In this document: positions 9,377-52,781 of the stretch, one piece after another
How the letters are laid out: each line of letters begins with the position of its first letter
Numbering within the stretch: position 1 is the stretch's first letter
NCBI GenBank assembly: GCA_029959195.1
Contig: CP114123.1
Location: 1,922,001 to 1,986,000 of the forward strand
Direction of reading: 5' to 3'
Source of the DNA: Dictyophora rubrovolvata
Taxonomy: Eukaryota > Basidiomycota > Agaricomycetes > Phallales > Phallaceae
Length of the DNA stretch: 64,000 bases
Made by a program: the position numbers and the translations under genes
Notes under the pieces: generated by a model
Database searches by the model: none
What the model was told of the DNA's origin: nothing
What the model saw: only the letters and a program-made list of their open reading frames with translations

Positions 9377-9857
9377 TGTAGATACTAAGTTGTCACTATC
9401 TGGTGTCGACCTAATATACTGTAATGATCTCTAAGATGGAAAGATAGATTTAATTCGAATGAAAAATGAGGATTAAATACAAAAGGTCTGAGGACCACAA
9501 TGTAAGCTAAGGACATAATGGAAGGACTAAAAATGAGGACAAGAAAGGAGTGTCCGTACGGACAAACAAACGATGAGGACAAAGAACCTAAATATACTCT
9601 AAACGGGCGCTAGGGACCTCGTGTAGGGAGCTGTGCTCCCTTACACCATGAGACCACTAACTAAGGTTAACTGCTTGGTACTGCCATAGGAAGCTGGTTC
9701 AGAGGTCCCTTGAGATTCACCTGTCTGGGTTGACTCATGGAACTAGTGTTCAGCACAGTTAGTACTCTATACAAACTACAAAAGCTAGTAGTACTAACCT
9801 TGTGGGACACCAAAAAGTTTCCTACAATGGCCTTAAACTATGTTAGTCAGTGCGCAG
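9377..9857. other. Between transposase start and 2256-bp unit; remnant of protease 3' part
   Basis: This 0.5 kb should hold the last codons of the Ulp1-like protease (its coding sequence stops at 12114 on the other side of the inserted unit) and the promoter of the transposase. I could not follow the protease frame with confidence beyond the insertion. Confidence 0.4.
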
Positions 9858-10685
9858 TGTAACGATCCGAAGATAATAGCTAAATGTCGTAGCTATCTAT
9901 ACAATCGGAAAAACTACGAAGATATTTTGTTTGAGGCCGTCTAGTCTCCGTGGAGCGGGTCCTGGTGCTAATTTCGTAAGGAGGAGGGTGGGGGAATAAT
10001 ATGATATTTAGTGAGTGTGTGTGCGTCGATATAAAACCAACAACAACAAAAAAATGATGATCCTAAGATCGTGTGTGTGTGAGGGGGACGATAAATGTGA
10101 GTTGCGATAAAATGGTGAGTCAATACGCCGTCGATAATACAGCAATGATAATCTGTTTTAAAGTTAGTAAGGCTTCAACGACAATACGAATCGTTGAGTT
10201 TATACTCCGAGGCCTCACTCAGAGTAATCCAAAGAAATAGACGTGAGCGTAGAAATAGACTAGAGACGAAACTTGACTTGAACTTGACTTAAACTGAACT
10301 AAAACTTGAGACAACCGTTCCGGTAGATTGCTGCTGTTACAATTATTTACACGCAGTATATATACCATTTGGAAACATAAAGGAAAGCAGAATGATCACT
10401 CATCATTCGCCATGATAACAAAAGGAAACAAAAAGAGAACAAAGAAACAAAAGAAAAAAGGAGAAAATGATGGAGGATACAATTACAGAAAAAGGGGAAT
10501 CGCATATGTGGTTAGGGGGAATAGGAGAAATATGTTGAAACAAAAAGAGAAACAAAAAGAGATCAAAAGAAGACGATGAAACCGGATTCCCAGCATAGCT
10601 TTACCAAAATCACCATCTGGCACTTCTCGCGCTACCTCTTACCCAAAACTATAATCTTACCATCCCAAACTTCTTACTGATCTGG

Positions 10686-11252
10686 TTATTGTTGACGAGA
10701 TCTTCTTCTTCGTGGCTGTGGCGCAATAATAATGGCTATGGCAATGCTTAACAATACCAGATCTTGAACGAGATTGGATTGGAGATCGGAATAGGAAGGG
10801 AGGGTTTGATTTCCAACAGAGTAGTCGGGAGGGGATGGGATGGCAGATAGGGGTGCGTCTATGAATAAGAATTGAGTATAACTTCGAAATTGATGACGAA
10901 AGACCAGTCTCCAGATTGATTCTTCTTGACGATTTGTTGAAAGGAACTCGACAAACTCATACGATTCGTCCATGACATTGACGTTGGTTCGTTCGTACAG
11001 GGTTAAAGCTCGTGGATATCCTATCTCCAGATCGTCATAAGGAATAGTAATCTCCATTAGTGGCTGTGGAGTAATCGGAAGCATTGTGGAGGGGTCGACA
11101 TCAATTTCAGAAACAAGAGTATTGTAAACGCGAAGTCGTGAGAGGAAATTAGGGTTGGGTCCGAATCTGAGAGAAGAACGATATTCAAAAGGGAAGAAAG
11201 GGAGTTGAAAAAGGGGAATAGGGGAAGTAGGAGTATCGTTATTGTCCGACAT
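10686..11252 (-). CDS. Unit ORF2, 188 aa, unknown function (inverted copy)
   Basis: Identical in translation to 17292-17858; see that entry. It begins MSDNNDTPTSP and ends in a hydrophobic stretch followed by RRRRSRQQ. Confidence 0.5.
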   Translation of the reverse strand: MSDNNDTPTSPIPLFQLPFFPFEYRSSLRFGPNPNFLSRLRVYNTLVSEIDVDPSTMLPITPQPLMEITIPYDDLEIGYPRALTLYERTNVNVMDESYEFVEFLSTNRQEESIWRLVFRHQFRSYTQFLFIDAPLSAIPSPPDYSVGNQTLPSYSDLQSNLVQDLVLLSIAIAIIIAPQPRRRRSRQQ

Positions 11253-11357
11253 GATGATATGAGTTAACCAAAATTTTTAAGCGCTAATGAAATGTCCAGA
11301 AAGAAAGAAGGAGATGAAATACAAATCTAATCGCTTATCCTAATCAAGCCTTTTGTC

Positions 11358-11990
11358 CTAATTTCGTCCAAGAAGGTTTGAGCAAACGCATCGGATCTTT
11401 CGGAAGGATCGTTTGGATGGAGAAGAGGGGAGAGATATTGGTTCTGGCGAATGGGGTGAAAAACGAGACATTTGAGGATCTACAGGAACAAGATTGGCTG
11501 GTCTATATGGGCTATGTTTTTGTGTTTTTATGTTTTTCATGACAACCCAACGACTTGGCACATCTAGAACCAGGAATGTAAATTCGAACCCTTCTTGTGT
11601 CACTAACCAAATCCGATATGAGTCTTTAACGGCTGATTCGGGTGTAGAATAAACATTAATAATTGTAAACCAGTCTAATCGTTCCTCGATATAAACCTTT
11701 TCTCCAAACATGAGACCGGGGTGAACCAAATCCGAACTTCTGCATTGATGAATAATAAGAGGTGGAGGGAACTTCGGGAGGTACGTTTCTTCGTCGATGT
11801 CGAGACTCGCATATTGGGAACTATAGATATAAAGAGTCGTATGCAGATCCAAATCGTATGTCCTTGGACTGGAAGGCGAAAAACGAAAAGGTGATATAGA
11901 TTCATCGTCGGAGGGGGGTAATGACTCGGTGGGAGATGCTGGAATGGGCAAAGAAATTGATGATGTATAGTGAAATGAAAATGCGGCCAT
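11358..11990 (-). CDS. Unit ORF1, 210 aa, unknown function (inverted copy)
   Basis: Identical in translation to 16554-17186; see that entry. The ATG chosen gives MAAFSFHYTS. The frame stays open a little further upstream but without an ATG. Confidence 0.5.
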   Translation of the reverse strand: MAAFSFHYTSSISLPIPASPTESLPPSDDESISPFRFSPSSPRTYDLDLHTTLYIYSSQYASLDIDEETYLPKFPPPLIIHQCRSSDLVHPGLMFGEKVYIEERLDWFTIINVYSTPESAVKDSYRIWLVTQEGFEFTFLVLDVPSRWVVMKNIKTQKHSPYRPANLVPVDPQMSRFSPHSPEPISLPSSPSKRSFRKIRCVCSNLLGRN

Positions 11991-12113
11991 TTTTTGTAAG
12001 GGTTTTGATTTCAAGAGGCTGTGGTGTATCGGTTAAGTTTTTGGTAGTTTGAAACTCCACTTTGAACCAAAATTCGGAACGTTTCCTTATTAGGAAGATT
12101 TTGGTGCGCGACA

Positions 12114-13236
12114 GCGGCTCGGTCTTTTGGCATCCAAAGTGGGTCTTGGAATATGGTGTGTGCCAACGCATTCACAGCACATACTCCACATGAGATTGCA
12201 TCCTGCTGCTTCCTAATTGGAAGCTGATTATGCAGGTGAGTGAAATGAGTCTGAAATGTGTGCTCAATCCATTAATCCAGTGCGTGGTCAACCCATGTCA
12301 GCCCAGACCCATCTAGGGAATCACCTAACAATTTGGTAAGTAAACACAAATATTTTTTAAGTATTATCACTAACCATATCTAATTGTTTTCTCCAAAAAG
12401 TCTACATGAAAAGGAATCCAATGATTGCTGTTCAAGTTGGCAATGAAATAAAGGTCAGTGCATCCACAGTTTTTTACCATATTTTCAACGGTGGCTAATA
12501 CAATATTGTCGAACTTTTCATCCTTCAATATCGTCACCAGTGACAAGGTCTACAAAAGAATGCGACGAGAACCTTGAGGCTTTTTCAGCAAATGCATCTC
12601 AAGATGAGAGATCATGGCATCGACTACTATGTTGTCCAACCATTTGTTGGATAACAAACGTACAAATTCCATAGTTCAGGTGGGCCCATGAGGCATTTTC
12701 ACATCGGAATTCCACGGAAAAATGGTCAACAGATTATGAACATCATCCACTGTAGCTTGCAATGATGCGTTCAGGGCGTGTTTCCTTTGTCGCAATCCAA
12801 GCAACCACATCTGGCAGTCTTGCCACTGGCCCTTCGCTTCGATCAAACGGTGAATTTCTTCCCAGTATCTGAGGATTCAAAAGGGAAACCTTTCCTTGCC
12901 TCTGAAGTTGAGCGACTGTGCGCCGTTTAACCACTGTGTGGCTAATACTTTTTTGAGTTCAAATATAACATGCATTGGTGGAATGAGCCGGGGCGCAGGA
13001 AAGTCTGTGACTGGGGGTAGGTTGGAAAATAAAAGGGCTACAGATTTGGAGCTTGGATTATAGCCAGTGATAAATGGCAAATCAGTTTGAAGAAAATCGG
13101 CTATGCTGATATTCGAAGCGACTGTGTCCTGGTATCTAGTGGGAACAACCATAAGGTCGCCAAGCGCGTCTTTGGCCTTGGGTGCCTCCAGATCAATTGG
13201 GGGTGTTTCAGGATATGATGCTCCTGATGTTATCAT
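12114..13236 (-). pseudogene. Ulp1/C48-like cysteine protease of the inner transposon, split by an insertion
   Basis: Probable start at 13236 (MITSGASYPETPPIDLEAPK), an upstream-domain segment with VVPTRYQDTVASNISI and FSNLPPVTDFPAPRLIPP, then the protease core: LLSNKWLDNIVVDAMISHL near 12650, LNSNHWIPFHVDFLE near 12420 (catalytic His), YGDSL (catalytic Asp) across an intron from about 12372 to 12322, and QQDAISCGVCAVNALAHTIF near 12190 (catalytic Cys after a Gln-Asp). This is the Ulp1-type order His-Asp-Cys. Such proteases ride in several eukaryotic transposon groups. The 2256-bp unit enters right after the Cys motif at 12113/12114. The coding frame also changes near 12745, so the gene is broken at least twice. 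Confidence 0.75.
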
Positions 13237-13666
13237 TGTCGAAGTAGTATATAATATGAGAGTTTTGAAGAATGTAACTGAGGATACAGAAAAAAAAACT
13301 GACAGTGGAGTCCACAAGCATCCATTGACCGATCTTCGCCTCTAGTGCTATATTACACTCTAATTACACTCTGTCGTGGGAGAAAAAGTAGCGTCCACCA
13401 GAATCGAATGGGCGAACAGAAATGGAGTCCTAAAAGGCACCATCACCGGTACCCTTAGGCCATCAAGCCTACAACTTTGTCCCAGATATAGAGGTATAAG
13501 GGGATATGAGACCGACCCACCTGCCCGAATTGGGCCTCCGACATACGTTCCACTGACAGGATCTAGCCTGAGTAAAACGCCCCCGGTATCAACACCCTTC
13601 TAACCAAAAAAGCCCGAAATCCCCCTGGCCTTGAGGGTTCCAGAGTCCCTCAGATAGCCCAAAAAC

Positions 13667-13701
13667 GGTGCCGGCCTTAATAGGGATTAACGGGGGTCCT
13701 G
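13667..13701 (-). repeat. Inner element terminal inverted repeat, high-coordinate end
   Basis: The exact reverse complement of 4084-4118, ending GGGGGTCCTG and followed by TCAGGA. Confidence 0.85.
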
Positions 13702-14527
13702 TCAGGACTGGTCGGGACTGGTCAGGATGATCGGGATGATCAGGCCTTGATCAGAAACCCTGTGCTTGATCAGGACTATCAGGAGATGGTCAAGAATTTG
13801 AGTGAGGATCAGGGCAGGGTTTACCAATCAGGATGACATCGAGCGGATTGGGACATGTATACCAGATTAGGTTTTTTAATTCCCGACTCACATGCCATTA
13901 AATAGCAAATACATGCAAAACAACATCCAATTTTTATTATTTATTTGTAATTAAATTTTCAGATTATTTATTAACTAAGAATCACTAACTAAATGCTACG
14001 GGCTTCACGGCCAATGTCGAAAGTACAAGTCTAAAAAAATTGGACTTAATCTGGGAAAAATGAAAGTGAAATCCTTACTTTTTAGCCTGGAACACCACGG
14101 TCATAACATGACTTTAGAAAGGGCTTGTTCTTGCAATAGTAGTAGCAACAAGTGGGACGACCATGTTGAGATTAGAAACACCCCACGATTATCTGCAATT
14201 GCGAATGTCCACTGAGGTAAGTTTGCCAAAAAAAACCACTTACTTTTATGCAACTTTGCTGTGGTCCTGCACTCATAGGTCAAAATAGTGTGGGAGTCTT
14301 GGATAGACACTTACGGCTGCACCCAAATGGTGGAAAGGGAAAAAGAACTGTCTCATAGGCATTGCATTCCCGTTGCTCTTATATGTGAGCCTATATGCCT
14401 TAGTAATCTGTCGCTACTTGAGTATCCCTGCATGCCATGAAATATGCAACCGGGAATTGCAGGTCGTTCACTACCACCTTTTTCCTCCCGTCTTTCACTC
14501 ACAACATCACATAAAGTTAAAATCGCC
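13702..14527. other. Plavaka subterminal region and non-coding sequence
   Basis: The first 150 bp are a run of GATCAGG/GGTCAGGACT motifs that continue the left subterminal region at 3967-4083. The rest has no convincing ORF. Confidence 0.5.
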
Positions 14528-15083
14528 ATGCTCTCTGGCTCTGAAACAGAACCAGACTTTGACTCAGAAACAGGTCTTCCATTCCCAGACCAGAAAAAAA
14601 CTGTAAGTAATTTTACACATGTTGATTATTAATAGCTTGGAGAACTTAGGCCGTGATGCTCTTTAGGATCCAACTCAACGCATGGTGACCGATGCGTGTG
14701 CAGGCTTTGAACAGGTTTTGAACCATGTTCGACTAAACATAGATCTTGACATTTTAATTGATGAAATCCAGGCTGTCAAGAATGAGGTTAGAGCTGTGAG
14801 GACGGAGGTTAAAGGGCTGAGGAACGAGTTGCGGGCAATTAGGGAAGACATGACAGAAATAAGGACAATACAAAAAGTGATCTTTAGGTTGTCTGAGGTG
14901 ACAAAGGAAGAAATGAGACAGTTAAAGATGTCGCAAAGAGACATGCTTATGGTGTGTGAGGCGATGAAGGAAGAAGTGGAAGGAGGAAAGAATTATCAAA
15001 GGGCTTCAGTGGTGGAGATGCATAGTGTTTTTCAGGCTTGTGTTCAAGGGTTTGCGAATATTGCTGATGTCAGGGTATGCTAG
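14528..15083 (+). CDS. Small coiled-coil protein inside the Plavaka element, 3' end replaced
   Basis: Two exons: 14528-14602 (MLSGSETEPDFDSETGLPF...) and 14667-15083, joined in frame by a 64-nt intron with GTAAGT and TTTAG. The product is about 164 residues. Exon 2 has a long run of charged heptads such as EIQAVKNEVRAVRTEVKGLR and LRNELRAIREDMTEIRTIQK, predicting a parallel coiled coil. The last codons (RVC) come from the LTR-like repeat that starts at 15068, so the original C-terminus is lost or displaced. It may be an accessory gene of the transposon; I know no named family for it. Confidence 0.55.
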
Positions 15084-16340
15084 CGTCGTCCCCTTATTTT
15101 CCTTCGTTTATCTTCGGTTCTAGTTTATCTTATTCATTCCCTTATTTCTCGTATTTTATCCCATTTCCTGCATTCCCCCTTCCTTCCGTATTCCTTTCTT
15201 TCCTTCCAATGGGCGCTGAGTGTCATGATCCAATTCATGACATCACTAGCGATACGGATTCCTTATTATATTCCCTTATCTTATCATACTTAAACATTAT
15301 CTTATCACAATCACTTCATAGACGCCACGACCGGAAGTCTTATCAGACTTCAGCGCCGTTTTTACAAAGTCCTAGAGGCCGTCATCTTCCTAGGACTTAC
15401 AGTAAGCCGCGGATAGACCTTTGGTATAAATTCTAGTTCCAAACCGCGCATGAGATCATCTATGACGGTCGTAGGTCCTTATGTGCTTTCCCTTTGTTCT
15501 TGTTGCCTCATGTTTGCCACATGGCAAACTGACCCTGCATATACCTATGATACTCACGAATTGCTATGACATGTATATGTTCTCAAGTTCGTTATCTATT
15601 TCAAACTGAGATTCAAACCTCTAGCGTACTTGTATATAAAGCCTCCTATACTTCGTAGCTAGACTTCTCTTCAGACTTAATATCGAACCTAGTTCGATAT
15701 CTCAATATAGTCTTCATTTCCCAATAGCGCTTCAGTCATTTCCAAACACTTTAAATCTAAACCACCCGTAGCGATAACGCCGTTCCGGCGTTGGATCCGC
15801 TACTTCTTCCATCTCTTGTTCTTCTGCTTTCTAGTCGACAATCTATTCTACCAGATCATTTTAGACTTCTTAGAGCTTTGGCTCAACGAGATTCTACGAC
15901 AACTCGAAGATCCCGAACGACGTCAGGACAAGTAGAGCCAATGTCCAGAGGACTGTCATGGTACAACCCACTCAGGTTGAGACCGCGCTCTACGACATTA
16001 CGGTGACGTTTGTATCATCATTAAATACAATTATTAACGTTTATACATTCGTCACCAATACCCGAGAATCGGTACTTAACACTGAGCGCCCGTTCCCATC
16101 AGAGCCATGGCCTAGGCCCCGGCTAAAAGTCTGGGACCAGCGCGTATCTGCGCCCAGTCCATGAACCGAAGGCCACATATGGCCTTCGCCGTTTTTTCAT
16201 AGTATATAGTTAGTAGCCCTAGAGGAGGGATCCCTAAGTTTGTTCTCTTAGAATCCCCTCCCTCTAGGTGAGTTAGTATTTTTCCAAAATACATTTTGCT
16301 TAGGATCCCCTCCCTCTAGTCTGAGTGAGTAGCCCTGACA
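15068..16340 (+). repeat. 407-bp LTR-like repeat X, split by a solo LTR
   Basis: Ends TGTCAGGGTATGCTAGCG and TAGCCCTGACA. Without the 861-bp insertion and one copy of its 5-bp duplication it is 407 bp, the same length as the related copy at 50671-51077. TG..CA ends suggest the LTR of a Ty3-like fossil. No target duplication is evident, so it is not a clean solo LTR. Confidence 0.65.
15221..16081 (+). mobile_element. Solo LTR, 861 bp, inserted in repeat X
   Basis: Begins TGTCATGATCC and ends CTTAACA, flanked by CTGAG on both sides (15216-15220 and 16082-16086). The uninterrupted target GGTACTGAGCGCCCG is present in the other copy of X at 50814-50828. A fossil of an LTR retrotransposon reduced to one LTR. 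It is younger than repeat X. Confidence 0.9.
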
Positions 16341-16430
16341 GAATCTCCCAGGGCTAGAGACTCACCAGATCAATATAGACATGTCTCCTCATAGTTTGCC
16401 AGATATCCCTGTGAGAGACTGCATGACCGA
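16341..16430. other. 90-bp segment between repeat X and the 2256-bp unit
   Basis: Either Plavaka sequence or leader sequence of the element whose LTR is X. Too short to decide. It ends CCGA, repeated after the 2256-bp unit at 18687-18690. Confidence 0.4.
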
Positions 16431-16553
16431 TGTCGCGCACCAAAATCTTCCTAATAAGGAAACGTTCCGAATTTTGATTCAAAGTGGAGTTTCAAACTAC
16501 CAAAAACTTAACCGATACACCACAGCCTCTTGAAATCAAAACCCTTACAAAAA

Positions 16554-17186
16554 ATGGCCGCATTTTCATTTCACTATACATCATCAATTTCTTTGCCCAT
16601 TCCAGCATCTCCCACCGAGTCATTACCCCCCTCCGACGATGAATCTATATCACCTTTTCGTTTTTCGCCTTCCAGTCCAAGGACATACGATTTGGATCTG
16701 CATACGACTCTTTATATCTATAGTTCCCAATATGCGAGTCTCGACATCGACGAAGAAACGTACCTCCCGAAGTTCCCTCCACCTCTTATTATTCATCAAT
16801 GCAGAAGTTCGGATTTGGTTCACCCCGGTCTCATGTTTGGAGAAAAGGTTTATATCGAGGAACGATTAGACTGGTTTACAATTATTAATGTTTATTCTAC
16901 ACCCGAATCAGCCGTTAAAGACTCATATCGGATTTGGTTAGTGACACAAGAAGGGTTCGAATTTACATTCCTGGTTCTAGATGTGCCAAGTCGTTGGGTT
17001 GTCATGAAAAACATAAAAACACAAAAACATAGCCCATATAGACCAGCCAATCTTGTTCCTGTAGATCCTCAAATGTCTCGTTTTTCACCCCATTCGCCAG
17101 AACCAATATCTCTCCCCTCTTCTCCATCCAAACGATCCTTCCGAAAGATCCGATGCGTTTGCTCAAACCTTCTTGGACGAAATTAG
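16554..17186 (+). CDS. Unit ORF1, 210 aa, unknown function
   Basis: Single open frame from MAAFSFHYTS to SNLLGRN. No recognised domain. The middle has beta-rich alternation (TLYIYSSQYASLDIDEETYL, then RIWLVTQEGFEFTFLVLDVP). The ends are Ser/Pro-rich with a basic C-terminus (SPSKRSFRKIRC). It resembles ORF2 of the same unit: DLDLHTTLYIYSSQYASLDI pairs with RLRVYNTLVSEIDV, and YRIWLVTQEGFEFTFLVLDV with WRLVFRHQFRSYTQFLFIDA. Both arms of the inverted pair encode the same protein, so the frame has been kept at least since they separated, which may be very recently. Function unknown. Confidence 0.55.
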   Translation: MAAFSFHYTSSISLPIPASPTESLPPSDDESISPFRFSPSSPRTYDLDLHTTLYIYSSQYASLDIDEETYLPKFPPPLIIHQCRSSDLVHPGLMFGEKVYIEERLDWFTIINVYSTPESAVKDSYRIWLVTQEGFEFTFLVLDVPSRWVVMKNIKTQKHSPYRPANLVPVDPQMSRFSPHSPEPISLPSSPSKRSFRKIRCVCSNLLGRN

Positions 17187-17291
17187 GACAAAAGGCTTGA
17201 TTAGGATAAGCGATTAGATTTGTATTTCATCTCCTTCTTTCTTTCTGGACATTTCATTAGCGCTTAAAAATTTTGGTTAACTCATATCATC

Positions 17292-17858
17292 ATGTCGGAC
17301 AATAACGATACTCCTACTTCCCCTATTCCCCTTTTTCAACTCCCTTTCTTCCCTTTTGAATATCGTTCTTCTCTCAGATTCGGACCCAACCCTAATTTCC
17401 TCTCACGACTTCGCGTTTACAATACTCTTGTTTCTGAAATTGATGTCGACCCCTCCACAATGCTTCCGATTACTCCACAGCCACTAATGGAGATTACTAT
17501 TCCTTATGACGATCTGGAGATAGGATATCCACGAGCTTTAACCCTGTACGAACGAACCAACGTCAATGTCATGGACGAATCGTATGAGTTTGTCGAGTTC
17601 CTTTCAACAAATCGTCAAGAAGAATCAATCTGGAGACTGGTCTTTCGTCATCAATTTCGAAGTTATACTCAATTCTTATTCATAGACGCACCCCTATCTG
17701 CCATCCCATCCCCTCCCGACTACTCTGTTGGAAATCAAACCCTCCCTTCCTATTCCGATCTCCAATCCAATCTCGTTCAAGATCTGGTATTGTTAAGCAT
17801 TGCCATAGCCATTATTATTGCGCCACAGCCACGAAGAAGAAGATCTCGTCAACAATAA
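17292..17858 (+). CDS. Unit ORF2, 188 aa, unknown function with hydrophobic tail
   Basis: Starts MSDNNDTPTSPIPLFQLP. The core is similar to ORF1. The C-terminus has LVLLSIAIAIIIA followed by PQPRRRRSRQQ, which could be a short tail anchor with a basic end. It follows ORF1 by 105 bp on the same strand. The older copy at 51078-51328 keeps a recognisable remnant (LLYHNEFLFMDAPTNAI against RSYTQFLFIDAPLSAI), so the ORF belonged to the family before the recent copies arose. No homologue is known to me. Confidence 0.55.
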   Translation: MSDNNDTPTSPIPLFQLPFFPFEYRSSLRFGPNPNFLSRLRVYNTLVSEIDVDPSTMLPITPQPLMEITIPYDDLEIGYPRALTLYERTNVNVMDESYEFVEFLSTNRQEESIWRLVFRHQFRSYTQFLFIDAPLSAIPSPPDYSVGNQTLPSYSDLQSNLVQDLVLLSIAIAIIIAPQPRRRRSRQQ

Positions 17859-18686
17859 CCAGATCAGTAAGAAGTTTGGGATGGTAAGATTATAGTTTTG
17901 GGTAAGAGGTAGCGCGAGAAGTGCCAGATGGTGATTTTGGTAAAGCTATGCTGGGAATCCGGTTTCATCGTCTTCTTTTGATCTCTTTTTGTTTCTCTTT
18001 TTGTTTCAACATATTTCTCCTATTCCCCCTAACCACATATGCGATTCCCCTTTTTCTGTAATTGTATCCTCCATCATTTTCTCCTTTTTTCTTTTGTTTC
18101 TTTGTTCTCTTTTTGTTTCCTTTTGTTATCATGGCGAATGATGAGTGATCATTCTGCTTTCCTTTATGTTTCCAAATGGTATATATACTGCGTGTAAATA
18201 ATTGTAACAGCAGCAATCTACCGGAACGGTTGTCTCAAGTTTTAGTTCAGTTTAAGTCAAGTTCAAGTCAAGTTTCGTCTCTAGTCTATTTCTACGCTCA
18301 CGTCTATTTCTTTGGATTACTCTGAGTGAGGCCTCGGAGTATAAACTCAACGATTCGTATTGTCGTTGAAGCCTTACTAACTTTAAAACAGATTATCATT
18401 GCTGTATTATCGACGGCGTATTGACTCACCATTTTATCGCAACTCACATTTATCGTCCCCCTCACACACACACGATCTTAGGATCATCATTTTTTTGTTG
18501 TTGTTGGTTTTATATCGACGCACACACACTCACTAAATATCATATTATTCCCCCACCCTCCTCCTTACGAAATTAGCACCAGGACCCGCTCCACGGAGAC
18601 TAGACGGCCTCAAACAAAATATCTTCGTAGTTTTTCCGATTGTATAGATAGCTACGACATTTAGCTATTATCTTCGGATCGTTACA

Positions 18687-18849
18687 CCGAGGAGAAGAGA
18701 GATGACCCAGCACACACTTGCAAACCGCAAAGCACCAAGCGGCAGAGTGATGTTAATCTCAAAGTTCACTGACTGTCACACATGTCACACTGGCTGCTCT
18801 CCATGAAGTTCGCCGGCGCAATGGATATGATCTCAAGTTTATAATAAAG
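18687..18849. other. Plavaka sequence between the 2256-bp unit and the transposase
   Basis: Begins CCGAGGAGAAGAG. No separate ORF is supported. Confidence 0.4.
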
Positions 18850-22730: not shown

Positions 22731-24291
22731 TTGTCCATTTTTTCAACCGTGTCCGCTAGTTCCCAATCTTTGTTCAGTATTCTGTCCTCATCCCAAATTA
22801 GTGGATATGGTCTAGGTAATAGTGTCATGTATATTGTCATTTCGTTAACTGACTGTGTTTTCTTAGCTGCAGTCACTACTATGTTGCTATGGGATATCAT
22901 GATCACCTTACCCAGAGAAGTATGCCGTGCGATTGACTAGTTTGTTTTCTTGTCGTCTAAACCTTCGCATAGAAATTATACATATGGTCGTAAGCTCCCT
23001 TTTCCGTATGATTTCGATGGAAATTGGACCTGAAGCTATTAGATATCACTCAAGGGTTAATTGGACTACTCTATTTTATATAACCACGCGTTATTTGCCT
23101 TTCATCGTCAGCGGGTACGTCAATTGTGCATGATGTCAGTTTATTGCATATCTGTTGATGATTTTCAAAGGATTTGTCTGTCACTGACTTCTAACGTGCT
23201 GAACAGTATCGGCGCTTCACCTTCAGATCTGTTCGTTAGGCATTTGAGCATATTCTATATTATTCCGTGGTTCGTCGTATTGGGTTGCACTGAGATACTT
23301 TTCATAAGAAGGAGTAAGCGATCAAAACGATTCATCTTTCGGACAGACCCTGACCAAAATAGTTGTTGCATTGCATGGTGGCTCAAAACTACTTCTACAA
23401 ATCTTAACTGGTTTATTGATTTGTGAATTAATTTCCACGCTTGTCGTTTTTTTCCTTTTCACTTTGAAAAATCAGTCCATAAGTAAGTAAACTTACCACC
23501 GTGCTCATCTGATGAATTCTCGTACTACTTTATTCTTCCACAGTACACATCACGATAGTTATCGGAGGCCAGACTCTTGGCCAGACATCTGTTCTGTTTT
23601 CTGAAACCTACTTTGCGTATGTAGTACTTATTTGCACAGGAGAAGTGCTCATTGCTCATGATTCACATTCCATAATCCTCAGGTTTCCAGGACTTGTATT
23701 TCAAGCTGTTCTAGTCATACTTATCATGAAGAAAGTAATCTCGGATTGGAGGTTGGGGGTGGCAAGGTGCAATCTTGGGTCTACTTTGATCCGAGATGGT
23801 TTATGGAGTTACTTTTTTAATTTATGTGAGTAATTAATTTTATTCCTAAATATTTTAACGAAGTGGAAAAGGTGGTTTGCTTGTAATCGTCATTCGGCCG
23901 CAGTGGTTGCGTGGTCCCTTTGGACTACCCAATTTACTGTAAGTTTTTGGCCTTTGATATTGTACTTGATAATTTATGTTAATGCGAATATAAACCGGAA
24001 GATGGTCCTATGTCAGTTTTTCAGTCACTGTAAGCGGGTAGAATGTCAAGCCATACATCATAAATGTTTACGGATCAATTCTAGAGTACTCGTTTGGTTT
24101 TAAACCTTCGTGAGGTGGCGGCAAAACAATCCGGATCGAACAATACATCTACTGTTGACCCCGGAACCCGTTTTATATTTGGTCGAAACATCAGGTCTCT
24201 CCTCGGATCCCCAAACGATGAGTTATCAAGGCCATATCATTACCATGATCTTGGAAACAATCTGGACTCTGACAGTGATGATAATGATTAG
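22731..24291 (+). pseudogene. DUF6533-type multi-span membrane protein, copy A
   Basis: The exon chain matches copies B and C: an N-terminal exon ending SGYGLG, a helix with AAVTTMLLWDIMITLPRE (22869-22919), the 14-nt exon 22973-22986, NWTTLFYITTRYLPFIVSG (23059-23118), IIPWFVVLGCTEILFIRR, VVALHGGSKLLLQILTGLLI, FPGLVFQAVLVILIMKK, LIRDGLWSYFFNLC (23790-23829), and the tail LVLNLREVAAKQSGSNN to DSDSDDND. DUF6533 proteins are predicted seven-helix membrane proteins abundant in basidiomycetes; their ligands are unknown. Where copies B and C start with ATG, this copy has GTG (about 22750), and no in-frame ATG is seen just upstream, so it may be silenced or start elsewhere. Confidence 0.7.
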
Positions 24292-40971: not shown

Positions 40972-42566
40972 TTAGTCATCGAAGTCCGAATTGTGTTCGA
41001 GATCATGATAATGATATGGTTTTGATAATTCATCGTCTGTAGACCCAAAAACAGGCTTGATGTTTTGAGTAAACGTCAAGCGAGTCCGTGTGCCAGCAGA
41101 TGTATCGTTTAACGCTCCCGGTTGGTTTGCCGCCGCAGCGCGAATATTTAAAATTAGGCGACTACTCTGGGGCCATTTGTTCGGTGAATTCAAAAAGTAT
41201 ACGTTTGGCCTAAATTCACTCACAGTAATTGAAAAACTGGCATAAGACCATCTTTAGTATATTATGGAAATCAGCTAATAGTACAATACCAAAGGGGAGC
41301 CATCAAAAACTCACAGTATATTGGGCAGGTTGAAAAGACCACTCAACCACGCCGGCTGGATGAGAATAACAAGCAAACCAGCTTCTCTACTTTATTAAAC
41401 TCTCTATGAGCAAGAGTGAATTACGGACCTAGATTACAAAAGTAGCTCCATAGGCCATCTCGGATTAGAATAGACCCAAGATTACCCCTTGCGGTCCCTG
41501 ACTTCCAATCCGAGATTACTTTCTTCATTATCAGCATGACTAAAAAGGCTTGAAACACAAGTTCTGGGAACCTATGGGTCATTTAGTGTATGTATATCAT
41601 GAGCAGTGCAGATAAGCACTACGTACGCAAAGTAGGCTCCGGGAGGAAAAACTGGGATCTCCGATGATAATTCGAGCAAAGGGCCCAAAAGCGATGCGAT
41701 GATTACTATAGAAGATTAAAGCGGTACAGGAATCCTTTAAATCAGCATGGTGATAATTTTACTTACCTGGGAACGACTCGTTAAAGATAGTGAAATAAAA
41801 AAGAAGAAAAAGCGCAGAAACCAGTTCGCAAATTAGTAAGCCAAATAAGATACGTAAGAGTGGTCTTGAGCCGTTATACAATGCAATAGCTGGTAGGGTG
41901 GCACTGGTCAGGATCTGTCCAAGATATGAATTATCAATCGTTCTGACTTACTTCTTCTTACAAAAAGTATTTCAGTGCAGGCCAATACGACAAACCACGG
42001 AATAGTATAGAATATGGTGAAAGTTTTGGCAAACGGTTGAAGAGATGCAATTGCCGTATCATATGGCACACATCCGTCTGCCAAAATGTTTTCATTGGCT
42101 TTTGTGCAAACGGATTGTTCAAACTGCAGCAGTAATAAACAAATCCTTCAAAGATACTCAGCAGATATACAATCAACTATCATGTATAATTGACGTACAC
42201 GTTGACGGTAAAAGGCAAGTAACGAGTGATTATATAGAATAGGGTGGTCCAATTAGCTTCTGCATGATATCTAGTAACTTCAAACTTGGTTCCCATCCAA
42301 GTTATACGGCGGAAGAAGCTTACGACATTATGTATAATTTCTATGCGAAGGTTTAGACAACACGCAAGTAAACCACATCATTTCACGACATACCTCTCTG
42401 GGTAAGGTGATCAAAATATCCCATAGCAGTACAGTAGTGGTCGCAGCTAAGAAGATAGACTCAGTTAACAAAATGCTAATATATATGTACTCTCACCTAG
42501 GTTATAATATCCACTACTATCAAATGGGCCCAGAGTACTGACAGAGTAAGGAGATTCAGCGGACAT
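40972..42566 (-). CDS. DUF6533-type multi-span membrane protein, copy B
   Basis: Start at 42566 (MSAESPYSVSTLGPFDSSGY). Exon 2 gives AATTTVLLWDILITLPRE, the signature first helix of DUF6533. The 14-nt exon at 42327-42340 follows, then NWTTLFYIITRYLPFTVNVY, a helix near FTIFYTIPWFVVLACTEILF, later helices, and the tail LILNIRAAAANQPGALND to DLEHNSDFDD. About ten short introns. The family is predicted to be seven-helix membrane proteins of unknown ligand, expanded in basidiomycetes. The gene pairs divergently with the YLLYRKL relic starting at about 42780. Some middle exons were matched by eye to copy C only, so an internal defect cannot be excluded. Confidence 0.7.
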
Positions 42567-42779
42567 GGGAAGGTGGGGGTTGAGTCAAATAGAACTATCA
42601 AAAGGTTATAGGTATATAGGCGGTGTACTTCTGAGAATTGGTGTCCCCGTTCCGTCTTACTTCGTACTGGGGTACAACAGTCGGCATACAGCGGCCGTGA
42701 CTCCGTTGGGCAATGATTGCAACATTTGAACACTTATATTGTGTTAAAAAAGTGAAGCATGAGGTTAACTCAGTGGCTG

Positions 42780-43620
42780 CGCATCAGGAAACACCGCTGA
42801 GAAAAAAATGAAAATCGATTGAATGAGACAGGCGATTTCAGTTTTCTCCTCGATGTTGATCTCTTGAACAAGTGGTCGTTTTTTGCCTCACATACTCAAG
42901 CTTACCACCTGTTGAGTGATGTTCGCAATTGAGTAGCCGGGCGTCGACGTTGATGGGCTGGGTGACGAGCTTCGGTTTGCAGATTGCAATCAATCCTACA
43001 TATCAAACACTATCCCACGGAAGATCTGTGAATACGGCTCAACGTGAATGAGGGTTTCAAAGGTATAGATGTAGAACATACTTGTAAATATCTCTTGAGG
43101 ATAGTATACTTAGCCAAGTGTCCTTTAATCTAAACACTTGAAAAACAGAGCAAACACTGGAGTAAGACACGCCATCTCACTTGGACGTAACTGCGTTCGT
43201 CTCGGGCTTCGTGAATTAGAATGATTTGCCACTTCTGTTGGTGATGTTTCCGCGGATCTTTTCCCATTGCAATTGCACAAAAAAATCATCGGTGTAGTAT
43301 GTGTCAAGGAAGATGTCACCGCCGCACCGGGAGTCACATCGACAATCAGTACCGACTGTAACCGATAAATCGGGTGCATCTCTTGCTGACTCATTTTCAA
43401 GTTACAGCCGCGACCTCTTCGTGGTTGGATTTCAAAACGAAGAACGAGCAAGATCGAGACGACCTCCCTACCCATGCGTTCGCCATTTCAAAGGCTGGTG
43501 TACCTGTTGTATCGGAAGCTCGTTGAAAGGGAAAAACAAAGCACACCTTGGAGAATGATCTGTTACATAGGTCGCAGATAAACGGTAGCCGTCATAATCT
43601 GATTCATAAATAGGGGATCC
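42780..43620 (+). pseudogene. Relic of a gene with a YLLYRKL motif, copy 2
   Basis: Aligns with 2440-3240 (inverted) and 46620-47480. Matching blocks are ACGGAAGATCTGTGAATACG (43018), TTTCCGCGGATCTTTTCCC (43247), and VYLLYRKLVERE near 43510. Similarity continues in GGGATCCTGGGTCCAACGAC (43613). No intact frame spans these blocks. Confidence 0.45.
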
Positions 43621-44195
43621 TGGGTCCAACGACGTCAGCGGTGAAGACGAATCTGATTGAGACGGAAACTAGAAGATCTTTCAAATGGATTCCAACAGGC
43701 AATGACGCGATTCACCCATTATTAGGAGCTTCCGATGCATTGGCTTTGTGACGACCTGTTCACATGGGACAAGACGAGACTGCAAAAAGGTATCACACCA
43801 TAATCAAGGAGAGTCTGAATCTATTTCATAGACAACAAATAGACAACGTGTCAATAAAAACACGCGATTCACGCATAGAGTATGGTACAACAGTTTATTG
43901 ATGAAGTCAAGTCAGCGGACATAAGGACGAAGAGCGCGACGAAGCTGGTGGAGCAATATTCAATATGCAATGATCATTCAACGAATCGATCTTGAAGCCC
44001 TTTACAATCGCTGCCAATTGCGCTGAAGCAGTACAAGAGCGAGTGAATAGGCGTTCGTACAGATCTTGTTATTGGTTCGGTGGGGGTACTCTCAGGGAAC
44101 ATTCCATAAACAGCAATAAAAATCAAGAAAAAAAATAGTAATGAACCGTGTTGCATGATATGCTGAAGAGCCCTGAATTTCGTTAATGGTCCAGT
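43621..44195. other. Spacer of the duplicated block
   Basis: Contains GGTATCACACCATAATCAA (43790), also present at 47558 and, inverted, near 2290, showing that the duplicated block includes non-coding sequence. No gene supported. Confidence 0.5.
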
Positions 44196-45819
44196 TCATT
44201 GGAGCGATACCTTTAATTCATCATCGAAATCCAAACCAATGTTTTCGAGATCATGATAGTGATATGGGGTTGATAATTCATCGGCTTGAGGCGCAAGTAA
44301 AGTCTTGATATTTTGAACAAATGTAGAACGGGACCATGGGTCAGCGGCGGGAGATGTATCGTTCGTTCTTGGTCGTTTTGCCGCCGCAGCGCGAACATTT
44401 AAGACTAAGCGAGTGCTCTAGGGCCGTTCAGTAAATAGCAAAAACCAAAACGTAGGGTGAGTCAAATTCCACTTACAGTGACTGAAAAACTGACGTAGGA
44501 CCATCTTCAATATCCAAATCAGCTAATACAATACCGTTGAATGGACTGTCAAAAGCTCACAATATATTGGGTAGCCCAAGAGGACCACTCAACCACACCG
44601 GCCGAGTGACAATTACCAGCAAACCACCTATTTTATATTCGATTAAAATGTCTCCGGATAAAATTAATTACCCACATAGATTAAAAAAGTAGCTCCATAA
44701 ACCATCTCGGATCACGGTCGAAATAAGATTGCTCCTTGTTATCTTCGACCTCCAATCCAAGAATACTTTTATCATTATAAGTATGACTAAAAGGGCTTGA
44801 AATATAAGCTCCGGAAACCTGCGGATGATTGAAGGTATATTAGAAGCACTATCCTGCGCAGATAAGCCCTACGTTACGTACCCAAAGTAGGCTGAAGAAA
44901 ATAAAACAGGATTTTTTGAATTAAGAGGAGAGTCAAAAGATAACTCGGGGACTGTGGAACAACAAAGCGATACAATAATTCATTAAGTCTGCATGGTGAT
45001 GGATTTACTTACATACGGACGACTCATTGTCCAAAGTAAAAAGATAAAGAGAAACGAGTGCGGAAACCAATTCACAGATAAGGAAAACAGCTAAGGTGCG
45101 CGAAAGGAGTTTTGAACCACCATGCAAGGCAACGACTGGCCCTGGTGAGAATCTGTACGAAAGATGAATCATTCTGATCGCTTACTTCTTCTTATGAAAA
45201 GTATCTCATTGCAAGTTAATACGACGAACCACGGAACAATATACAATATGCTGAAATTCCTGACGGACAGGCTTGAAGATACCGTATCTAATAGCGTCAT
45301 GCACCCGAAGTCATCCGAGTTGATTTTGCATTGGATTGCCAGAATGTCGGCTCCCCCAAACTCCAGCATTGACAGTAGTAGAAAAACCCTTCGGAGAATA
45401 GTCAACAGATATGCAATAAACTGCCATACATAGCTGACGTACACACTGAAGATGAAAGGCACATAACGCGTAATTATATAGAATAGGGTGGTCCAATTAG
45501 CCCTTGAGTGATATCTATTATAGTGACTTCAGACTTGGTTTCTATTACAACCAAATGGGGAAGGGAACTTACGACCACATGTATAATTTCTGTGCGAGGG
45601 ATTAGATGATAGGGAATAAACCAAGTCATTTTATGGCGTACTTCTCTTGGTAAGGTGATTAAGATATCCCATAACAAGAGAGTACTGGTTGCAGCTGAGA
45701 GAACATATTAGTCAGAGTTAACTCAATGATAATATATACACACTCCCACCTAGGTTATATTTGCCAATTATCGACGGGTTTAGAACACTATAAGAGGATT
45801 GGGATACAGCAGATGGCAT
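44196..45819 (-). CDS. DUF6533-type multi-span membrane protein, copy C
   Basis: The best preserved copy. Start at 45819 (MPSAVSQSSYSVLNPSIIGK), then AATSTLLLWDILITLPRE, the 14-nt exon 45576-45589, NWTTLFYIITRYVPFIFSVY, ILYIVPWFVVLTCNEILFIR, VVALHGGSKLLSRTLAVFLI with CELVSALVSLYLFTL, FPELIFQALLVILIMIK, VIRDGLWSYFFNLC and the tail STRLVLNVRAAAAKRPRTND, ending ELKVSLQ. Splice sites are canonical at the joins I checked. Predicted seven-helix membrane protein of the DUF6533 family; the ligand and pathway are unknown. It lies in an inverted duplicate of the block that holds copy A. Confidence 0.75.
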
Positions 45820-51077: not shown

Positions 51078-52781
51078 GGTGGTTCATATTCCATCGACCT
51101 CTTTTATATCATAATGAATTCCTTTTCATGGATGCGCCTACAAATGCGATCAACAATCACCCTGTCCCTGCCTATTATCCACTAGAGGTTGATACATCCC
51201 AACCGCTTCCCGAGTATCTTGAACATAGACCTCTAGTTCCATATGATTGGAGCCCTTTAATGAGAGTTCAACAACAAAACACATGTATACATATGGCAGT
51301 GGCATATGCACATCGTTTCCGAGGTTAGAGGAAGAGAATGGAAATTGATCTTGAGGCTGTATAGCGCTTATCGATGGTGATGTCTATTTTTGGGATAATT
51401 AGTAAGGATATTACCTCCTAATTTCATCATTCCATCCTCTTTTGCCCTTTTAATCCTAATTCTCTTCAATTGTGTCATGCTGTTTGTTCTTTTTATCATC
51501 TCTTTAAATCTATTTATCTTTCCCTCTATGTAGTTGTATAGTTTCACTGACTCGTCTATTCCTCTATTTATCCATCCAATTCTTTATTTCCTTCTTTCCT
51601 TTACAAATCTGGCATACAATTACTAATTGTATTGCCATCCAAACTTCAAAAATATTTCTTTTTGTTCTAAATGGTATAAATACTGCATGTAAATACGTGT
51701 AACAGCAGCAATCTATTGGAACGGTTGTCTCACAGTTTAGTCTAAGTCAAGCCAAGTTCAAGTCAAGTTTCATCTCTAGTCTATTTCTATGCTCACATCT
51801 ATTTCTTTGGATTACTCTGAGTGAGGCCTTGGAGTATAAACTCAATGATTCGTATTGTCGTTGAAGCCTTACTAACTTTAACAGATTTCTATTGCTGTTT
51901 TATCATCAGCATATTGTCATACCATTTTATTGTGAATCTATATTTATTGTCCCCCTCACGCACACAAGATCTTAGGATCGTTTTATTTGTTGTTATTGTT
52001 TGGTATTAAGTTCCTGAAGTTACTGAAGATACCGGACTTCGGTTAACTCAGGCAGACTCACAGGACTGATGTCACAGATGATCAGTGTACTGAGCAGGCT
52101 TCAACTTATGTGTTGCACCACTTACTTGTACATGCTCAGCGATTTGCTTCGCAACACTCCATGGATAGCAGATATATCAGTCAGAGGTTTGAGACAGAGT
52201 TCAGAGTGAGTCCGGATTTAGTGGTCAGATTTTAGAGACAAAAGTATCAAACAAGAATAGCCACGAGTCAGATGACTAGTTTGATTTCAGAACTGAGGAA
52301 CTAGATACATGATTCGGGGTTATTTATACTATGGGAATGTACTAGTTTGTCAGCACTGATAAAAGTGGTTTAACAATAAAACACGATTCGGATTACAATA
52401 AAATAATAAGACTAAAACGGGAATGAGTGGATTCGGAATACAATCAGTTATTGTATTCTAATTTGGGTAATTCGGGTTTAACAGATTACTTCAGAGAAAA
52501 CATAATCATAATGGATGTAACATAAGTTTTATAATCTTCGGAGTCATAATTCGGAGTAATATCGGTCAGCGGGTTTATTGGCAGATCTGGATCTTGACAT
52601 TTGGTTTGTTATCGACGCTCGCACACTCGCTATATCATTTATTCCCCCATCACGTCCTCGTTACAAAATCAGCACCAGGACCTGCTCCACAGAGACTAGA
52701 TGGCCTCAAACAAATATCTTCATAGTTTTTCCGATTGTATATTTAGCTACAACATTTAGCTATTATCTTCGGATCGTTACA
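51078..52781 (+). repeat. Older, truncated copy of the 2256-bp LTR-like unit
   Basis: Similar to about 17640-18686 of the complete unit: the end of ORF2, the TATA region (GGTATAAATACTGC near 51674), GAGTGAGGCCTTGGAGTATA, and the end GGATCGTTACA at 52781. The first 1.2 kb is absent. It is interrupted by a 596-bp insertion. Clearly more diverged than the two complete copies, so it is an older fossil of the same family. Confidence 0.75.
52004..52599 (+). mobile_element. 596-bp solo-LTR-like insertion
   Basis: Flanked by TTTGG on both sides (51999-52003, 52600-52604). The surrounding sequence is continuous in the complete unit at 18496-18520, so the insertion borders are exact. No ORF. The ends resemble LTR termini; family unknown. 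Confidence 0.75.

Follow-up and report, generated by a model that had tools for sequence, protein, structure and literature searches.

A 64,000-nt window of the Dictyophora rubrovolvata genome (28.24 Mb, 11 contigs; the window, i.e. the whole stretch analyzed, is C7:1922001-1986000) carries two inverted copies of a 2,256-bp unit that belongs to a family spread through the host genome. The copies are separate insertions of one mobile family, which duplicates 4 bp at CpG sites. With a probability of roughly one half, we interpret the unit as a complete, self-standing, non-autonomous element that resembles a long terminal repeat (LTR) and is moved in trans by an integrase of the gypsy or Ginger1 type.

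The initial annotation, made from the letters of the window alone, described two near-identical 2,256-bp TG..CA units in inverted orientation, and its coordinates proved exact. Each arm (9858-12113; 16431-18686, taken as its reverse complement) is 2,256 bp long, and the two are 99.96% identical, with a sole mismatch at 12067 (unit position 47); a repeat search of the window returned one inverted pair, with 4,309 nt between the arms. The units end in TGTCGCGC..GTTACA. CCGA stands on both sides of the plus-strand copy, as first reported, and the flanks of the other copy (GCAG/GCGG, or CCGC/CTGC in element orientation) form a duplication with one CpG transition. Upstream of a TATA box, both copies carry two open reading frames (ORFs), ORF1 (210 aa) and ORF2 (188 aa), and the U5-like end of the initial description corresponds to a leader-like tail of ~500 bp. 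The parts of the two units are as follows.

16431-18686, plus strand: unit copy 2, subfamily 1, complete, TGTCGCGCACC..GGATCGTTACA
9858-12113, minus strand: unit copy 1, complete and inverted, 1 mismatch to copy 2
16427-16430, no strand: CCGA target duplication (4 bp), left of copy 2
18687-18690, no strand: CCGA target duplication (4 bp), right of copy 2
9854-9857, no strand: GCAG target duplication of copy 1 (CpG transition from GCGG)
12114-12117, no strand: GCGG target duplication of copy 1
16554-17186, plus strand: ORF1 of copy 2, 210 aa, orphan protein
17292-17858, plus strand: ORF2 of copy 2, 188 aa, orphan protein with a hydrophobic, then Arg-rich C terminus
11358-11990, minus strand: ORF1 of copy 1
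10686-11252, minus strand: ORF2 of copy 1
18180-18187, plus strand: TATA box TATATATA, unit position 1750, in a core block common to aligned members of all three subfamilies
18210-18686, plus strand: 477-nt tail predicted to be R-U5-like, lacking ATG on the plus strand, a block swapped between subfamilies

A DNA search of the genome (41 rows) returned at least 37 complete copies (unit positions 1-2256) at 95-100% identity; the best 40 of 211 candidates were scored, so the copy number is a lower bound. With a tolerance of 3 mismatches, the genome has 107 matches to the 3' end and 132 to the 5' end, against 0 and 1 for a reversed-pattern control. Among the ends listed (100 of the 132 5' ends and 100 of the 107 3' ends), 75 of 100 5' ends have a partner 3' end no more than 8 kb away on their own strand, and 60 of the resulting 75 pairs span 2.16-2.29 kb; a few 3' ends count in two pairs, and some pairs fall in duplicated stretches. 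The same two ends were found in 30/30 loci; 29 of these are full length by search match, and the remaining one, L028, has lost internal sequence close to its 3' end and has plus-strand flanks CCGT and ACGT. The unit is not a chance pattern, as it is repeated in full, with identical termini, elsewhere in the genome.

Target duplications were counted in 36 complete copies of three subfamilies, omitting L028 (where the match ended early) and L063 (left flank cut). The 4-bp flank pairs are exact in 16/36 copies, have a CpG transition as their sole difference in 12/36 and differ otherwise in 8/36; subfamily 1 (n = 29) contributes 16 exact, 9 CpG-explained and 4 other pairs, and subfamily 3 (n = 2) 0, 2 and 0, respectively. 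The CG dinucleotide, with a frequency of 2.6% in the left flanks, is central to the duplication in 35/36 copies (on one side or both), and the outer bases vary (CCGG, ACGG, GCGC, TCGG and others). An empty site was also found: L023 minus the unit and 4 bp aligns without gaps to L010 over 689 bp (660/689 identical), L010 being an uninserted paralogous site at which a subfamily-3 unit is uninterrupted. The CG-centered 4-bp duplications and the empty site therefore identify the unit as mobile, with CpG as its target and 4 bp duplicated on insertion. TG..CA ends with a target duplication of 3-6 bp, by which LTR retrotransposons and solo LTRs are recognized, are thus present. The initial annotation had proposed looking for many copies with the same ends and with duplications of 4-5 bp; such copies exist, with 4 bp duplicated and 28/36 pairs exact or CpG-explained. 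One CpG hot spot was seen, where L012, L029 and L030 occupy positions only a few bases apart in copies of one CpG-rich repeat motif, in both orientations.

These insertions bear on another early suggestion, that 9858-18686 is one very long inverted-repeat element with the arms as its termini. The 99.96% identity of the arms and a second near-identical inverted pair (L015/L017) would suit such an element, but each arm has its own duplication, the outer flanks differ, L015/L017 has the opposite orientation to the window pair and a different spacing, and many of the listed end-paired copies have no neighbor. We rejected a palindrome or long inverted-repeat element on these grounds and regard it as highly improbable.

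The two window copies differ at 1 position, as do L015/L017, whereas the rest of the 435 pairs of 30 subfamily-1 copies show at least 19 differences. The window pair and L015/L017 have opposite relative orientations, and the one base that differs is close to the 5' edge in each (position 47 and position 5, respectively). L015/L017 share 4 private changes and have equal stop counts in both ORFs; no flank match touching the boundary was listed between the partners of either pair. For the window copies, local gene conversion between inverted neighbors is the simplest explanation of the near-identity; alternatively, a decayed copy mobilized in trans may have hopped locally. The family is real and was recently active. 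Large inverted duplications are also suggested at C1:875538-900266, C8:694018-713245, C7:1555158-1565577 and C10:1383589-1399581, where mirrored matches have equal or nearly equal scores.

Protein searches, in which the best 150 candidates were scored, gave at least 151 matches to ORF1 and at least 150 to ORF2 in the host genome, with more added by a subfamily-3 ORF1 query. After matches on subfamily-3 places or below the subfamily-2 cut were dropped (24/147), there are 192 ORF1 places, fragments counted separately, of which 80, 43 and 69 belong to subfamilies 1, 2 and 3, respectively. ORF1 identity to subfamily 1 is 47-52% in subfamily 2 and 30-32% in subfamily 3, and for ORF2 the identity between subfamilies 3 and 1 is 32-35%. 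Neither protein had a Pfam match at E values up to 1 or 5 or a significant match in the PDB (best E 0.6). Relatives elsewhere were not confirmed in searches of A1 and A2 against viral contigs and A1 against genome contigs, the host being the only fungal genome covered. The initial annotation also called the two ORFs related to each other; local alignment supports this in two of six comparisons (z = 4.7 and 5.8), while the other four (z = 0.9-2.6) and an hhalign probability of 15% do not, and homology between ORF1 and ORF2 is possible but weak.

Of the 30 subfamily-1 loci, 13 have two intact ORFs. CpG transitions account for 519 of 853 base changes among the 30 subfamily-1 copies, and for 16/16 and 14/16 of the stop-making changes in ORF1 and ORF2, respectively; CpG, the insertion target, is thus also the dinucleotide that decays most in the unit's own copies. 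For distinct non-CpG changes within subfamily 1, the nonsynonymous/synonymous ratio is 0.26 for ORF1 and 0.6 for ORF2. The ratio of nonsynonymous to synonymous rates (dN/dS) for ORF1 is 0.23-0.28 in comparisons of subfamilies 1 and 2, while those of subfamilies 1 and 3 are close to saturated at synonymous sites (proportion of synonymous differences 0.77-0.82; nonsynonymous 0.45-0.50). A comparison of synonymous and nonsynonymous changes, as first proposed, thus shows purifying selection on both ORFs between subfamilies, with weak evidence within subfamilies for ORF2. Judging from the ratios within and between subfamilies, ORF1 and ORF2 are therefore maintained.

Downstream of the ORFs, the TATA core block is common to aligned members of the three subfamilies, even ahead of a different tail type. 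In subfamily 2, L067, L068 and L074 (3/3 tail-A copies examined) are L065-like up to ~1750 and subfamily-1-like after ~1800; in each, informative sites change from 30 vs 2 in bin 1700 to 1 vs 22 in bin 1800. Subfamily 3 was likewise found with two tail types. The 477-nt tail of subfamily 1 contains 0 ATG, compared with 3.3 expected from shuffles (lower tail 0.01), and the tail-A copies of subfamily 2 (n = 2 counted) have 0 ATG each. Sequence comparison has shown the tail to be a separate module that follows more than one type of coding part, with the junction close to where transcription is predicted to start. The TATA box, the ATG-free tail and the module switch are what the U3, R and U5 regions of an LTR would look like. 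Exchange at the U3/R border is the expected outcome of template switching in LTR replication.

The copies could be true solo LTRs whose U3 codes for two proteins, the inside having been lost by LTR-LTR recombination or the parent being lost or extrachromosomal. The TG..CA ends, the TATA box, the ATG-free tail and a switch near the U3/R position speak for this, and long LTRs should recombine more readily. The search for a parent element does not. We compared all 75 reverse transcriptase (RT; RVT_1), 69 rve and 61 Integrase_H2C2 places with the 192 ORF1 places. Direct copies flanking gag-pol, which the initial annotation had named as proof of LTR identity, were not found: among the ORF1 places from searches that scored the best 150 candidates, none of the 21 direct same-subfamily pairs at 1.5-15 kb (8, 1 and 12 by subfamily, old copies included; in some, the two members belong to a single interrupted copy) has a same-strand RT, rve or H2C2 inside. 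Among the 30 subfamily-1 copies, the closest same-contig, same-strand pair (L001/L003) lies 189 kb apart and has 20 differences. No internal sequence is shared by the 55 distinct 3' flanks (5 pairs of flanks resemble each other, in apparent target repeats), and TGG occurs within the first 6 nt of 5/55. By comparison, a control gypsy family with a 275-bp LTR at 26 near-complete places has eight of these in four direct pairs, 7.4-7.5 kb apart with rve inside each, and so keeps at least 4 full-length copies. If 4/22 insertions keep their inside, zero in 37 complete subfamily-1 copies has a chance of <0.001, a figure that longer LTRs may shift. With RT or integrase in 0/21 pairs, against at least 4 full-length copies in the gypsy control, an origin as solo LTRs of a gag-pol family is disfavored, and we consider it a possible but doubtful explanation. 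We also rejected a larger autonomous version of the unit with other coding content: six regions with an unpaired or over-long end, plus L059, are truncated or interrupted copies.

The unit shares with gypsy LTRs and solo LTRs the TG..CA and TGTNR ends, the 4-bp duplication, the TATA box, a tail predicted to be leader-like and exchange near the predicted U3/R position, but differs in that no full-length form was found and in having two selected ORFs in its U3 part. The LTR reading of the initial annotation stands as regards the target duplications, constant ends, ORFs, TATA box, leader-like tail and switch near U3/R, and falls short where it made the copies usual solo LTRs.

A different mode of movement would make the unit a Ginger1-type, non-autonomous DNA transposon that a gypsy-like transposase cuts and pastes, its LTR likeness being inherited or convergent. 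Ginger1 elements, as described in the available part of the source, make duplications of CCGG (75%) or CCGT/ACGG (24%), have TGTNR ends as in gypsy, and carry terminal inverted repeats (TIRs) of 40-270 bp and a transposase (PMC2836005). The unit shares with them the CG-centered 4-bp duplication and TGTNR ends, both of its ends fitting TGTNR, but lacks long TIRs and a transposase and has an LTR-like promoter and leader (again relative to that part of PMC2836005). Its inverted ends, TGTCGCGCACC and TGTAACGATCC, match at only 7/11 bases, and no inverted repeat joining both unit ends was listed. Integrase genes were considered as well: for 11/61 H2C2 places the 3 kb upstream contain no same-strand RVT_1, so that a lone integrase-type gene is possible, but 50/61 follow an RT on the same strand. 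No Ginger1 transposase was identified. This explanation also leaves the TATA box, leader and module exchange unaccounted for, and we think it unlikely. The mover could sit among the H2C2 places with or without RT; for family D, no LTR pair was recognized in the fetched sequence.

Under our preferred reading, of a self-standing LTR-like element moved in trans, a gypsy- or Ginger1-type integrase would recognize the TGTNR ends and insert the unit at CpG. RNA would start after the TATA box, and a reverse transcriptase acting in trans would switch template at the U3/R boundary, causing the observed exchange. The template RNA may be read from tandem or circular copies (R-U5-U3-R), giving one LTR-sized DNA as product, and ORF1 and ORF2 may be element-encoded accessory proteins for expression, packaging or escape from silencing.

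Several observations weigh against this reading. No mover was identified for the unit, and the one resident gypsy family with readable LTR ends makes a 5-bp duplication (CGGAC) and is therefore not the evident mover. No tandem, unit-to-unit junction within 30 nt was recognized at the listed 3' ends (11 matches, none at any of the 100 ends listed of 107, which do not include tail-C ends), which leaves the source of R-U5-U3-R RNA hypothetical. Subfamily 2 has few exact or CpG-explained duplications (n = 5; 0 exact, 1 CpG-explained, 4 other), ATG depletion is weaker in tails B (3, 4) and C (0, 1, 2), and the exchange at the TATA block could be ordinary recombination begun in a conserved promoter. 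Selection on ORF2 within subfamily 1 is weak (nonsynonymous/synonymous 0.6-0.77), and one ORF2 pair within subfamily 3 gives a dN/dS of 1.41. Finally, one diverged same-subfamily pair on C1, 15.1 kb apart, encloses a lone rve (0.4 kb before the second copy, without same-strand RT), and three mixed-subfamily pairs (5.9, 9.6 and 14.9 kb) enclose same-strand domains; we read these domain-enclosing pairs as putative nested insertions.

Other repeats also occur in the window. An ordinary solo LTR (TGTCATGATCC..ACTTAACA) lies between both units at 15221-16081, with a 5-bp duplication, CTGAG, at 15216-15220 and 16082-16086. Other diverged repeat families, ~79-95% alike in direct and inverted orientation, occupy 41113-45520 and 22826-24110. 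One more, diverged relative of the unit is present.

51079-52781, plus strand: 5'-truncated relative, broken at ~52002-52600, with remnants of a subfamily-3-like ORF2 and a tail of the same type

Among known systems, coding in U3 is familiar from mouse mammary tumor virus (MMTV), in which the Sag protein is encoded in the U3 of a complete animal provirus. Coding in U3 is what the two have in common; Sag is a single protein of a complete provirus, and no sequence similarity is claimed. Non-autonomous LTR elements moved in trans include TRIM, Cassandra, Helenus and Ajax (PMC10886601). In the available part of that source, Helenus and Ajax have two LTRs with RNA-gene-like sequence in the LTR, Helenus with a primer binding site and polypurine tract between them, and some Helenus families are known only as fragments and solo LTRs (PMC10886601). 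By our interpretation the unit resembles TRIM in depending on others for movement; it differs from the elements covered there in having no recognized tandem junction, Rfam match or tRNA and in coding for proteins (PMC10886601). The unit is neither a Ginger1 nor a Helenus-type TRIM as these are defined in the available parts of the two sources. We found no published account of it in the literature searched, which included the accessible parts of PMC2836005, PMC10045372, PMC9674265, PMC10886601 and PMC12730594 and did not cover Repbase.

In its fullest form, which we put forward as no more than tentative, our account would make the unit an LTR turned transposon: an RNA-replicated, single LTR-sized unit with borrowed RT and integrase, CpG-specific insertion, two proteins of its own and three reassorting lineages. 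A relation between LTR retrotransposons and DNA transposons has been argued from integrase similarity (PMC2836005, in the part available), and if an LTR-sized unit itself moves, the line between the two would be blurred. If the interpretation is true, the fungal genome would hold a protein-coding LTR family with two orphan proteins under selection and a clear CpG target, and because young copies and intact ORFs are present, both the movement and the proteins are testable.

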